Source: Oceanisphaera pacifica
GTDB taxonomy: Bacteria > Pseudomonadota > Gammaproteobacteria > Enterobacterales > Aeromonadaceae
Reading direction: 5' to 3'
Assembly (NCBI RefSeq): GCF_017498065.1
Contig: NZ_JAGDFX010000017.1
Location: 1-64,000, forward strand
Length of the DNA stretch: 64,000 bases
Below are positions 10,190-37,068 of the stretch, piece after piece (position 1 is the stretch's first letter; every line of letters starts with the position of its first letter). A program made the position numbers and the translations under genes. Below the pieces are notes generated by a model. That model was given only the letters and a program-made list of their open reading frames with translations, was not told the origin of the DNA and ran no database searches.

Positions 10190-11206
10190 TTAGCTCAGTA
10201 TTTGGTGGCGCGTTGAGGGAAACAGATTCAATATTTTGTGCACTAAGTACACACAGCACAAAGTGAGCAAAATGGCGATGGTCATCGAGCTAATGCGATA
10301 TAAAGCGCTGTACACCAAGTCATGCTCTGGCGACACATATTGCCCAAATAAAATCCCCACAGTGGTTAAACCTGCAAAACCTATGCCCGGCATTCCCTCT
10401 TTAACATGCCAGCGGGCAAACACCATCACACATAACCAAAACGACAGCGTGAGCAACAGCAAATTGTGGTAATAGCTGTATAAAAATAGCTGGGTCAACA
10501 AACCTAAGCCACAACCCAACAAGGTGCCAATGCAGCGCTGGCGGCCCGACTGTGACGCCCCCACAAAACTCATGGGAAATAATACCAATATAGTGGCTAC
10601 TTGGGCCGAGAGTGAATCAACCAAGTCGACAGTTTGAAACACAATAAAACTTAACGTAGCGATAATGCCGCCCAATAAAGCCTGATGACGGATCACATTG
10701 GCACTTTTAGTTGGCAAGGCTCGTACCACGGGAGCCTCTTGGTTAGGCAAAAAAGTATAGACAATATATGCCAACGCCACCGATAGCAAAGAAGCAATAA
10801 TATTCAGCGACGCCATTTCGGCCAAATCAAAGTGTGCATAACTCGAAAAGTGCAGCATAATACTCAAACTCACGCAGCCTGAAGCGCCAAATAACATCAA
10901 AGGGCCTTTGGCCATCAAGAAAAAACGCCCCAAAAATAGGAAAAATACCATGGCAATAAACGCAGGCGGCCAGTGATTGAGGATGCCTGGCAAAATCATA
11001 ATCTCCAGTGACGTCAACAAAGAAGAGCCTATAAACTGCATGGCCACAAAGCGATTTAATATCGGCACCATGCCTAACAGCAGCATGGGATACACCGTAA
11101 AAAACACCCCAAAATTCCAGTTCATCACTTTAGCCGTTAGCAAACCGGCCGCACTGCCAAAGGCAATGCGCAAGCAGGTGCGCAGTTTATCGTGAGTTAA
11201 TTCCAT
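10190..11206 (-). CDS. DUF2955 (FUSC-like) inner-membrane protein
   Basis: A 338-residue protein with about ten hydrophobic segments arranged as two repeated blocks, typical of DUF2955 / fusaric-acid-resistance-like permeases. It ends the marR-hlyD-DUF2955 operon, with a 19-base gap from the HlyD gene. Such pairs (membrane-fusion protein plus FUSC-like permease) are thought to export small aromatic or toxic compounds, as AaeAB does. The substrate is unknown. No outer-membrane TolC-type gene is in the operon. Confidence 0.8.
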   Translation of the reverse strand: MELTHDKLRTCLRIAFGSAAGLLTAKVMNWNFGVFFTVYPMLLLGMVPILNRFVAMQFIGSSLLTSLEIMILPGILNHWPPAFIAMVFFLFLGRFFLMAKGPLMLFGASGCVSLSIMLHFSSYAHFDLAEMASLNIIASLLSVALAYIVYTFLPNQEAPVVRALPTKSANVIRHQALLGGIIATLSFIVFQTVDLVDSLSAQVATILVLFPMSFVGASQSGRQRCIGTLLGCGLGLLTQLFLYSYYHNLLLLTLSFWLCVMVFARWHVKEGMPGIGFAGLTTVGILFGQYVSPEHDLVYSALYRISSMTIAILLTLCCVYLVHKILNLFPSTRHQILS

Positions 11207-30925: not shown

Positions 30926-30974
30926 TTCCTTGGCTCCTTCGGGCGAAGAAACCACCGACAAGCTAAACGCTGCC

Positions 30975-31073
30975 CGTTAGTTTCCTACGCCAGCATTAAC
31001 TGGATCAGGTACCGCGGGTCCGGTGTACACCGTCTCAGCCTTTAATCGTTTAAATAAGGCCCCCCGACTAACA
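30975..31073 (-). promoter_or_regulatory. TPP riboswitch (THI element) controlling thiD
   Basis: Read on the minus strand, the element has GTTAGTC / ACTAACG closing the outer stem, the invariant CTGAGA near 31034-31040, ACCGGACCCG, CCTGATCCAG, and AATGCTGGCGTAGGAAAC. These are the conserved blocks of the thiamine-pyrophosphate aptamer. Between it and thiD a short stem CTTCG / CGAAG overlaps the GAAGGAG ribosome site, suggesting control of translation. Strand and position fit thiD alone. Confidence 0.95.
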
Positions 31074-31408
31074 ATGGGGCTGATAGTAACCATCTCACCC
31101 AAAAAAAGAAAGCCGTATCCCTTCGGGAGCTATCAGCTTGAAGCTCTAAGCCGTAAGTTAAAGATTAAGAATAAACACTAACGCTAGATCTGCAACAAAA
31201 CCCGCTAAACCCAAGTGAAAGGCAATGTTGAATTAAGAAGTTCATTCAACACTGTAATTCTGTCGTCCTCTTCACCCCTTACACCTCACCCATTACGGCT
31301 TTTTGTAGGCTAAAGCGGTGAATATCATTAGCCAGAAGTGAGTCGGTGTAAGCAACCGCTGCCTTTATATATACGCCACTATCGTCAACGAATACTCTAG
31401 TTCTTATC

Positions 31409-34734: not shown

Positions 34735-35382
34735 ATGCAAAAAGTTGCCGTTATTTTAAGTGGTTGTGGTGTGTTTGATGGCTCAGAAATTCATGAAGCC
34801 GTGTTATGTATGCTGCATTTAACAAAGCAAGGCGCCAGCTATCAGTGCTTTGCCCCCGATAAACCTCAAGGCCAAGTCATTAATCACTTAAATAGTGAGC
34901 CGGAGCAAAGCAGCCGCAATACATTAATTGAAGCCGCACGTATTGCACGAGGCGACATTAAACCACTGACTGAGCTCAATGCTGAAGACTTTGATGCCCT
35001 GCTGTTACCCGGCGGTTTTGGGGTAGCAAAAACATTAAGTGATTTTGCTACCCAAGGGGCAGATGCCACAGTAGATGAGCAAGTGCTGGCGGCCTGTAAA
35101 GCCTTTGCTAGTGCGCGCAAGCCCGCAGGGTATTGCTGTATTGCACCAGTATTGATCCCTCGTGTTTATCCCGCTGGGGTAAAAGGCACCATAGGCACAG
35201 AAGCGGATGTGGCAGCAGCATTTTCTGCCATGGGCGGTGAGCATATTGGCTGTGTGGTAACAGATGTAGTAGAAGATGCCCGTTATCAAGTCATTTCTAC
35301 CCCAGCTTATATGTTGGCTGAAAACATTGCCGAAGCAGACATAGGTATCGGTAAGTTGGTAAAGCGCCTACTCGAAATGTAA
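34735..35382 (+). CDS. elbB: Isoprenoid biosynthesis glyoxalase ElbB
   Basis: 215 residues of the DJ-1/PfpI fold. GCGVFDGSEIHEAVLCML at the start, LLLPGGFGVAKTLSDFA, and GYCCIAPVLIP with the nucleophile-elbow cysteine are ElbB signatures. ElbB has weak glyoxalase activity; the link to isoprenoid synthesis comes from E. coli lycopene work. GAGGAG at 34722-34727 is a strong ribosome site. It is monocistronic as far as visible, divergent from polA. Confidence 0.95.
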   Translation: MQKVAVILSGCGVFDGSEIHEAVLCMLHLTKQGASYQCFAPDKPQGQVINHLNSEPEQSSRNTLIEAARIARGDIKPLTELNAEDFDALLLPGGFGVAKTLSDFATQGADATVDEQVLAACKAFASARKPAGYCCIAPVLIPRVYPAGVKGTIGTEADVAAAFSAMGGEHIGCVVTDVVEDARYQVISTPAYMLAENIAEADIGIGKLVKRLLEM

Positions 35383-35414: not shown

Positions 35415-35598
35415 TTATTCGCAACGGAATCCACGGAACCCGCAGAAAAATTAAGATGAGATAAACTCGAAAAGTGACAAGATCATATTATAGTAAGACC
35501 TCTCTTTCTTCTGGCTTGGGGGTAGCTCTTACCATAAAAACCACTTTCAGATTTGCTCTCTATTTTTCTGCGTTTTTCTGCGGATTCCGTTGCAAAAA
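35415..35598. repeat. Inverted pair of dispersed repeat family 2 (copies B' and B)
   Basis: The left copy (35415-35460, minus orientation) begins CGCAACGGAATCCAC; the right copy (35528-35598, plus) ends GGATTCCGTTGCAAAA. The outer ends are therefore inverted repeats of each other, enclosing about 70 bases. The same outward arrangement is seen at 41911-42301. Confidence 0.7.
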
Positions 35599-35620: not shown

Positions 35621-35753
35621 AAAAAAAAGGCCAGCAAAACGCTGGCCTAAAAACTCTGGAAGCAATGTGAGCAATGTCGCGCTTTCAAAATCTGTCTCCA
35701 CTTACTACACAAAGAGTAAGATTGAGGAGCCTTCCATCAAAAGCAAGTTAACA
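35621..35753 (-). ncRNA. ryhB: RyhB iron-responsive small RNA
   Basis: On the minus strand the core GAAAGCGCGACATTGC continuing to TCACATTGCTTCCAG matches the conserved RyhB core almost base for base. It is followed by a GGCCAGC / GCTGGCC terminator hairpin and eight Ts. RyhB pairs with mRNAs for iron-using proteins under iron starvation, with Hfq. A 5' hairpin CTTAC / GTAAG precedes the core, making the RNA longer than E. coli RyhB. The 5' end is inferred from the Fur box and a GATAAT -10 at 35760-35765. Confidence 0.9.
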
Positions 35754-35754
35754 G

Positions 35755-35778
35755 TAACTATTATCATTTGTATTTGCA
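35755..35778 (-). promoter_or_regulatory. Fur box at the ryhB promoter
   Basis: The minus strand reads ACAAATGATAATAGTTACT, close to the Fur 19-mer GATAATGATAATCATTATC. It overlaps the likely -10 element, so Fe-Fur would block ryhB transcription. Confidence 0.7.
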
Positions 35779-35872
35779 AGTAAAGCTTCCCATCTTTATA
35801 TTTTATTTCTCTTTAACCGTATTCCTCGCAACTGAACTACACTGGGTTAGGTAACAACAAAAGGGGAATAGT

Positions 35873-36056
35873 ATGAATAAACACTGGTTATGGGGCCGCT
35901 ATATTGCTACCCAGCATGCTACTTGCTGATGAAGCCGAAGACGCCCACGTAGCAGTTACGCTGTTTGATTATGTGGCGACCTTAATTCGCCAATTGCAGG
36001 CTGGCGAACTGGGTAAGCTATTTCCCGAACCATTAGCCGGCTGGAAAGCAAACTAA
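35873..36056 (+). pseudogene. Frameshifted small secreted protein, about 60 residues
   Basis: AAGGGG sits before ATG at 35873. The frame begins MNKHWLWG and then stops early. One base further along, a second frame reads GAAILLPSMLLADEAEDAHVA to a TAA at 36056, i.e. the rest of a signal peptide (cut after LLA) plus a short acidic/helical mature part. Restoring one G in the GGGG run at about 35892 would join the halves into one protein. I do not recognise the family. It may be a true pseudogene or a one-base sequencing error. Confidence 0.45.
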
Positions 36057-36129: not shown

Positions 36130-37068
36130 TTAAGACGTTGGAGTTACCGCCGCTTGCTCTGTTAGTAGCTGTAAAAAAAGATCCTTCAATCGACTTTGAC
36201 GGCCATGACTGCGGGTAATAGCGGCAATGCCTAATGGATGACTTTTTTGCTCTGGGAGTATCGTCTTTAAACGTCCTTGCTCGACCCAGCGACGGGCAAA
36301 GTTTTCCGGCAAAAAGCCAACATAGTGACCCGATAATATAAGGGCCGCCCTTGGCTCATAATGATAAGCACGGCCCGCACTCCTTAACCCTTGCACTTGA
36401 GCACTTGCCTCGGGGTTGGTGTAGATACCCGGGTGAATAAACTTAGCATCTGCCAGCTTTTTTTCTAATACATTAGAGTCTTGCTCGTTAAACAGCGGAT
36501 GAGTGTCACTACAATATAAAAAACAACGCACCTGATAGAGTGGATGGTAGTCCAACCCATCTAAGTCCCTGTGGTAGTGAATAAACCCCACATCGGCATC
36601 TTCACTTAAAACCCGCCGTTCAATCTCACTCATTTGGGCGACATCGACACTTACATTTACTTCCGGTGCGACCTCTCCTAAGCGAGCAAAAACATCAACC
36701 ATTGAAAATTCATTTTCCAGCCATAAATTATCGCTAGACACAATTTTAAGCTCACCGCTTAGTTGCTCATGCAGCTCGTTTACCGAGTAACGAAATTCTT
36801 CTAACTTAGTGAATAGGCGCTTCGCGGATTCATAAACCACAGCCCCATCATCGGTTAATGCAAAGCCAGATCGCCCACGCCGACACAGCTTAAGCTTAAG
36901 TCGGCTTTCTAGATTAGACATATGAATACTAATAGTAGAACGACTGATGTTTAGCTCGGTTTCTGCCGCCGAAAACCCCCCGCACTCCACCACCGTCTTA
37001 AACAATTTAAGCAGGCGAATTTCGTAATCACCTATCTGACCCAATACTAGCCTGTTTGCATGACTCAT
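36130..37068 (-). CDS. LysR family transcriptional regulator
   Basis: 312 residues. The N-terminal winged helix (about 15-75) reads LLKLFKTVVECGGFSAAETELNISRSTISIHMSNLESRLKLKLC. The C-terminal ligand-binding domain follows. It is divergent from the dehydrogenase gene and probably controls it and the permease and transaminase beyond, in response to an omega-amino acid or semialdehyde. In Pseudomonas the bau genes for beta-alanine catabolism also have a LysR regulator (BauR), so it may be the counterpart; that is an inference from context. Confidence 0.92.
   Translation of the reverse strand: MSHANRLVLGQIGDYEIRLLKLFKTVVECGGFSAAETELNISRSTISIHMSNLESRLKLKLCRRGRSGFALTDDGAVVYESAKRLFTKLEEFRYSVNELHEQLSGELKIVSSDNLWLENEFSMVDVFARLGEVAPEVNVSVDVAQMSEIERRVLSEDADVGFIHYHRDLDGLDYHPLYQVRCFLYCSDTHPLFNEQDSNVLEKKLADAKFIHPGIYTNPEASAQVQGLRSAGRAYHYEPRAALILSGHYVGFLPENFARRWVEQGRLKTILPEQKSHPLGIAAITRSHGRQSRLKDLFLQLLTEQAAVTPTS

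Follow-up and report, generated by a model that had tools for sequence, protein, structure and literature searches.

A RyhB small RNA gene, predicted to spare iron, between elbB and a LysR gene in Oceanisphaera pacifica

We found that a 64,000-nucleotide stretch of the Oceanisphaera pacifica genome (the whole stretch analysed, hereafter the window; contig NZ_JAGDFX010000017.1, positions 1 to 64,000) carries a genuine ryhB gene, which passes all sequence tests apart from the Fur score taken by itself and is otherwise an ordinary member of its family. We identify it as RyhB because four lines of evidence agree: the covariance model match, the synteny with elbB, a conserved promoter and Fur-like block, and complementarity to sodB. 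The gene very probably encodes a working RyhB, a Fur-controlled, iron-sparing small RNA acting on sodB, with Fur binding, the iron response, Hfq dependence and mRNA decay extrapolated from the family. A full-text search of a literature library found no paper on RyhB in Oceanimonas, Oceanisphaera or Zobellella. With this gene, a well-studied iron regulator whose main target can be tested is placed in that group.

In the mechanism that we favour, iron-loaded Fur would occupy an operator over the -10 region when iron is plentiful and keep ryhB off. Once iron runs short, a transcript of ~124 nt would be made and held by Hfq, and its core would pair with the mRNAs of iron-using proteins, in sodB at a site ~50 nt upstream of the start. 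Pairing would then lead to loss of translation and to mRNA decay, sparing iron.

A RyhB gene beside elbB

The features of the locus are as follows (window coordinates).

34735-35382, plus strand: convergent neighbour, traced by tblastn across the genus, which we take to be elbB
35418-35596, no strand: palindrome-ended repeat (inverted repeats) in the intergenic region between elbB and ryhB, outside RyhB
35621-35744, minus strand: ryhB, copy a, predicted transcript of ~124 nt (RF00057 match; 5′ end placed by promoter spacing and genus alignment)
35621-35648, minus strand: predicted intrinsic terminator, GGCCAGC/GCTGGCC stem and 8 T
35658-35678, minus strand: pairing core of two similar 9-nt units, ACATTGCTC and ACATTGCTT, unchanged in 30 aligned copies except for an added unit in G012 and G014
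35681-35744, minus strand: 5′ domain of the predicted folds, outer GCUUUU (35744-35739) with GAAAGC (35686-35681) and an inner hairpin, CUCC/GGAG and CUUAC/GUAAG
35747-35768, minus strand: predicted Fur-like operator over the spacer and the -10, best 19-mer 13/19
35751-35756, minus strand: -10-like hexamer TACTGT, separated from the -35 by 17 nt; most genus copies have TATCGT
35774-35779, minus strand: -35-like hexamer TTGCAA; TTGCAA, TTGCAC or TTGATA in aligned RyhB promoters
36130-37068, minus strand: LysR gene (Pfam HTH_1 and LysR_substrate)

When the window was scanned with cmscan against 4227 Rfam families at their gathering thresholds, two matches were returned, and RyhB alone matched at the ryhB site. 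The RyhB family (RF00057) matched 35622-35686 on the minus strand over the full model, positions 1-67, scoring 72.4 bits where the gathering cut-off is 55 (E 1.3e-11 in the 64-kb window). This was the covariance-model check proposed by the sequence-only reading, made before any database search, and it bore out the RyhB core seen there on the minus strand. A minus-strand TPP riboswitch was also found at 30965-31076 (78.9 bits).

The core, GACATTGCTCACATTGCTTCC, occupies 35678-35658 and, read as GACAUUGCUCACAUUGCUUCC, agrees with the model consensus at every core position. The terminator that had been noticed is likewise present, as a nine-pair stem (35648-35628) followed by an eight-T run (35628-35621), and two of its pairs have changed on both sides among the 30 aligned copies. 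These copies comprise 25 from the genus and five from the family genus g4; a degenerate extra copy in G022, for which no start was found, was dropped.

The position between elbB and a LysR gene was also read correctly; the sole Pfam match of the elbB product is DJ-1/PfpI, below threshold. The repeat of 35418-35596 has 71 matches in the genome, many of them partial or overlapping, and fills part of the 239 bases between the elbB stop and the last T of ryhB, a distance that ranges from -1 to 248 bases across the genus. On the other side, between ryhB and the LysR gene, ~35872-36056 appears by eye to be the remnant of a truncated gene, whose counterpart beside ryhB in G011 has 190 aa (L040 2997-3569).

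Distribution of RyhB in relatives

We surveyed RyhB in 61 genomes in all. RyhB scored above the cut-off in 23 of the 23 genomes of the genus (the Oceanisphaera/Oceanimonas/Zobellella group, the window's own genome included), and by tblastn elbB lies beside ryhB in every one of them, with ElbB in the other 22 showing 74-81% identity to that of the window. RyhB was also above the cut-off in five of five genomes of g4, which we take to be Aeromonas; at all five g4 loci tested, elbB was absent within ~1.5 kb of ryhB. Under stricter filters, no RyhB match was found in the nine genomes of family genera g2, g3 and g5, some of which are incomplete. In other families of the order, elbB and a RyhB match share an 8-kb stretch in L044 (~2.6 kb apart) and L046 (~100 bases apart), both matches being below the curated cut-off.

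RyhB is not rare outside enterobacteria and vibrios, as these counts show, and published reports describe it in Aeromonas salmonicida (PMC8780938) and Shewanella (PMC5826389). The earlier suggestion that automatic annotation misses the gene is plausible: in E. coli RefSeq, 54% of a 123-nt query aligned at 82-83% in five records among the matches listed, and in those five, of 5374 records with a match, no feature is annotated under the match.

The promoter and its Fur-like site

The -10 hexamer TACTGT agrees with TATAAT at three of six positions, a weak match, and a promoter scan did not list the copy a promoter. Against the 19-bp Fur consensus, the best site in this promoter scores 13/19, which taken alone is at chance level: the window has 22 sites scoring at least 13, and 20 first-order simulated sequences of equal length average ~15. 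We therefore dropped the consensus score on its own as evidence for a Fur site. Across the other 22 elbB-linked copies of the genus, scores in this promoter block run from 14 to 16, so that copy a is the lowest of the 23, and the arrangement of TTGCAA, Fur-like block and start region is conserved in the aligned genus promoters. It is because of this conservation in orthologous promoters that we consider the Fur-like site of copy a credible. Of the Fur-like site that had been proposed over the -10 region, the overlap thus holds and the consensus match by itself does not.

A second RyhB copy in the same genome

The sequence-only reading held that this gene gives the genome its iron-sparing RNA. 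The RyhB assignment stands, but the account is incomplete: the window's genome (G000; 3.1 Mb, 37 contigs) contains a second full RyhB, copy b, at G000:C5:62268-62329 (66 bits; minus strand of L038, ~10268-10330). Copy b lies ~430 bp upstream of an ABC transporter operon on the same strand. The first three genes of this operon, which we label 'sitABCD-like', have Pfam matches to ZnuA, ABC_tran and ABC-3. Its core is identical to that of copy a, its Fur-like score is 15 and its outer stem is predicted to be intact. The two copies, sharing one core, are probably partly redundant.

The same arrangement is found in G011 (L018), where the Fur-like score of copy b is 17. In G017 (L245), a decayed trace of copy b sits in the same place and retains the terminator and some of the 3′ half, with no Fur block recognizable in the alignment. 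A gene with at least 70% identity to sitA occurs in 13 of the 23 genus genomes; upstream of it, the RyhB core is intact in two of the 13 and a remnant in one, and for this reason we rejected the sitABCD linkage as ancestral in the genus. Three short RyhB words gave no clear trace upstream of sitA in G005, G014 and G022. A tree of four proteins grouped G000, G011, G017, G005, G014 and G022 with a support of 100, many of its other branches being weak. The simplest history would be that copy b arose by duplication at the base of this clade and was lost afterwards in some of its members; the second copy appears to have arisen within the genus. The persistence of the duplication in G000 and G011, set beside its decay in G017, offers a natural experiment on how paralogues of a small RNA diverge.

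Parts of the Fur-site variant of copy a are seen in G022, G005, G014 and G017, which have no intact copy b. By eye, an element similar to the 35418-35596 repeat sits between copy b and sitA. The repeat was rejected as the carrier of the duplication: it belongs to a high-copy family, and none was seen by eye beside copy b of G011.

Predicted fold of the 5′ domain

With the transcript start placed at G35744, copy a would give an RNA of 124 nt, typical of the 30 aligned copies, whose predicted transcripts span 111-154 nt. Its 5′ part had been described as longer than that of E. coli, which is right, and this length is the norm in the genus and nothing special to this gene. The CTTAC (35720-35716)/GTAAG (35705-35701) stem that had been pointed out is present and lies inside the predicted fold, as the inner hairpin of the 5′ domain.

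In most copies, the first bases, GCUUUC, are predicted to pair with GAAGGC just before the core, which would close the 5′ domain and leave the core largely open, and the energies favour this outer stem. RNAalifold did not choose the stem on the gappy alignment, and none of its pairs shows two-sided changes among the 30 copies. Controls with swapped partners came close (mean -9.9), at least 1 of 200 being as low as the real value of -10.6. In the inner four-pair helix, two pairs show two-sided changes, with just 81% of cells paired. An outer stem conserved in the 5′ domain is therefore likely, although covariation does not prove it.

Copy a is the only elbB-linked copy predicted to lose this stem. 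The probability that its outer stem forms is 0.01, whereas values of 0.68-1.00 are predicted for the other 22 elbB-linked copies and 0.99 for copy b; the five g4 copies range over 0.03-0.66, and G031, which has a single RyhB, is at 0.03. The minimum-energy fold of copy a omits the stem, and forcing it costs 3.2 kcal/mol, a difference that falls inside the usual error of fold predictions. The predicted fold departs from those of the orthologues and would partly hide the second core unit.

One possible explanation for these departures is that copy a is transcribed yet has been drifting since the duplication, with the sit-linked copy b doing most of the iron-sparing work. The low Fur score (13, against 14-16 in elbB-linked copies and 15 in copy b) and the near-absent outer stem would fit such drift, and both may fit an early divergence of the pair. 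We nevertheless regard drift as unlikely, if still worth keeping in mind: the core and terminator of copy a are intact, parts of its Fur-site variant are shared by the four genomes named above without an intact copy b, the low stem probability of the single RyhB in G031 indicates that such a value need not mean decay, and the energy difference is within prediction error. Because its core is intact, we favour the reading, drawn from sequence, that copy a still works as a RyhB.

The core is complementary to sodB leaders

The best-supported target of this RyhB, by predicted pairing, is sodB. About 50 nt before the ATGGCNTTTGAACTT start, the FeSOD (sodB) leaders of the genus have a somewhat variable stretch resembling AAGCAAGNAGCAATGTC, and the site AGUAAUGUCG in the sodB leader is complementary to the RyhB core; in this genome, AATGTC starts 50 nt before the sodB start codon. 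Three MnSOD-like paralogues were set aside from the 26 SOD matches of the genus, and against the remaining 23 FeSOD genes the 21-nt core gave a mean of -20.2 kcal/mol (-15.0 to -22.6), with 0 of 172 shuffled cores as low. The site of this genome contains a G-U wobble and pairs with the 21-nt core at -17.3, more weakly than in 18 of 22 genus-mates. With a 28-nt core, the sodB of this genome reached -26.4, compared with -23.4 for the best of 41 control ORF starts (the mechanically called ORFs of the window with at least 200 codons).

A further 26 SOD matches came from 21 relatives. The five g4 sodB genes had a mean of -15.8 kcal/mol, a modest result in that 8 of 172 shuffled cores were as low. 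Seven SOD genes from family genomes that lack RyhB had a mean of -11.0 kcal/mol, which did not stand out from the shuffled cores (91 of 172 as low). This comparison left out three paralogues from g4, one gene for which no start was found and ten matches from other families. Pairing in the RyhB-bearing genomes of other families was mixed, at -19.6 in G057, -18.6 in G046, -17.7 in G048 and -16.4 in G040, and weaker in G037 (-11.2), G054 (-10.5, perhaps an MnSOD) and G051 (two genes, -6.2 and -15.6); for two further genes of this set no start was found.

The conservation of this complementarity bears on whether the RyhB-like sequence could be a chance or decayed one with no function. A Fur-like site that alone is at chance level is what such a sequence would have, but the E value of 1.3e-11, the intact core and terminator, the presence of the locus in 23 of 23 genomes and the conserved match to sodB make this very improbable. 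That the RNA belongs instead to PrrF or NrrF, families of Fur-repressed small RNAs with the same iron-sparing logic, is scarcely credible, as RyhB alone matched the site at gathering threshold among 4227 Rfam families, presumably with PrrF and NrrF among them.

For sdhC, a possible target on predicted pairing, the mean over 22 genomes was -17.5, with 7 of 172 shuffled cores as low or lower, and the strong energy in this genome is that of a duplex interrupted by a long one-sided loop. The exact complement of an 11-nt seed has five matches in the whole genome and yielded no new target: two are the ryhB copies, and the remaining three fall within ORFs, at distances of 113, 1088 and 1447 bases from the first start codon. 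The genome has an hfq gene. All 23 genus genomes contain two Hfq-domain matches, a strong one of 102-104 bits and a weaker one of 82-83 bits, placed here at G000:C14:23492-23677 and 159284-159466.

Comparison with known RyhB systems

The predicted RNA resembles E. coli RyhB (RF00057) in its core, its terminator, the layout of a Fur-like site over the promoter and sodB as a predicted target. E. coli RyhB is 90 nt long and pairs with sodB across the start codon, whereas here the RNA would be ~124 nt and the sodB site, behind a small hairpin, precedes the start by ~50 nt. The g4 genomes, the nearest relative group, share the start region, the core and a weaker sodB site, and differ in having no elbB within ~1.5 kb of ryhB at the five loci. 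The mechanism of RyhB in E. coli and other bacteria is treated in a review (PMC3788343). The RyhB of Shewanella oneidensis is described as ~127 nt long, encoded between SO_4716 and SO_4717, under Fur control and acting on sodB (PMC5826389); going by that description, the window copy is similar in length and in its predicted target and control. Salmonella is reported to have two RyhB paralogues, RyhB-1 and RyhB-2 (PMC7944605, PMC9860832), and the present genome likewise has two in one genome. It differs in that its second copy lies upstream of a sitABCD-like operon and was found intact solely in G000 and G011, with the decayed copy in G017.

Variation in copy and unit number

A broader and more speculative reading, which we consider doubtful, is that RyhB is a movable and expandable module in the genus. 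Copy b, beside a metal-uptake operon, would be moving away from the elbB-linked copy both in the strength of its operator and in its 5′ fold, giving two iron thresholds; a core and terminator would have come to lie after an esterase gene in G022; and the 9-nt unit would have expanded in five genomes of the order. If this were true, the copy number and unit number of one small RNA would tune the iron-sparing response.

The G022 sequence (L041:3778-3841) has an altered RyhB core with three changes and a terminator, and scores 50.2 bits, below the cut-off. It begins ~20 bases past the stop codon that ends a gene for a putative siderophore esterase (Pfam Esterase) and has no Fur site directly upstream; a Fur-like site of 15/19 lies ahead of the esterase gene, a score reached by 2 of 300 random windows, which are largely coding. 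The altered RyhB is possibly read from the 3′ end of the mRNA.

The 9-nt unit has expanded beyond its two copies (L043, L035, L150, L151 and L152): there are three in G012, G014, G160 and G351, while G332 has five. An exact-pattern search of 394 genomes of the order matched three of them, G160, G351 and G332, in a sample that did not include G012 and G014. Two tandem RyhB cores lie 366 bp apart in G037 (L047, ~4141 and ~4507), each with a Fur-like promoter by eye, and in G048 (L037) a second core with three changes is found ~180 bp from the first.
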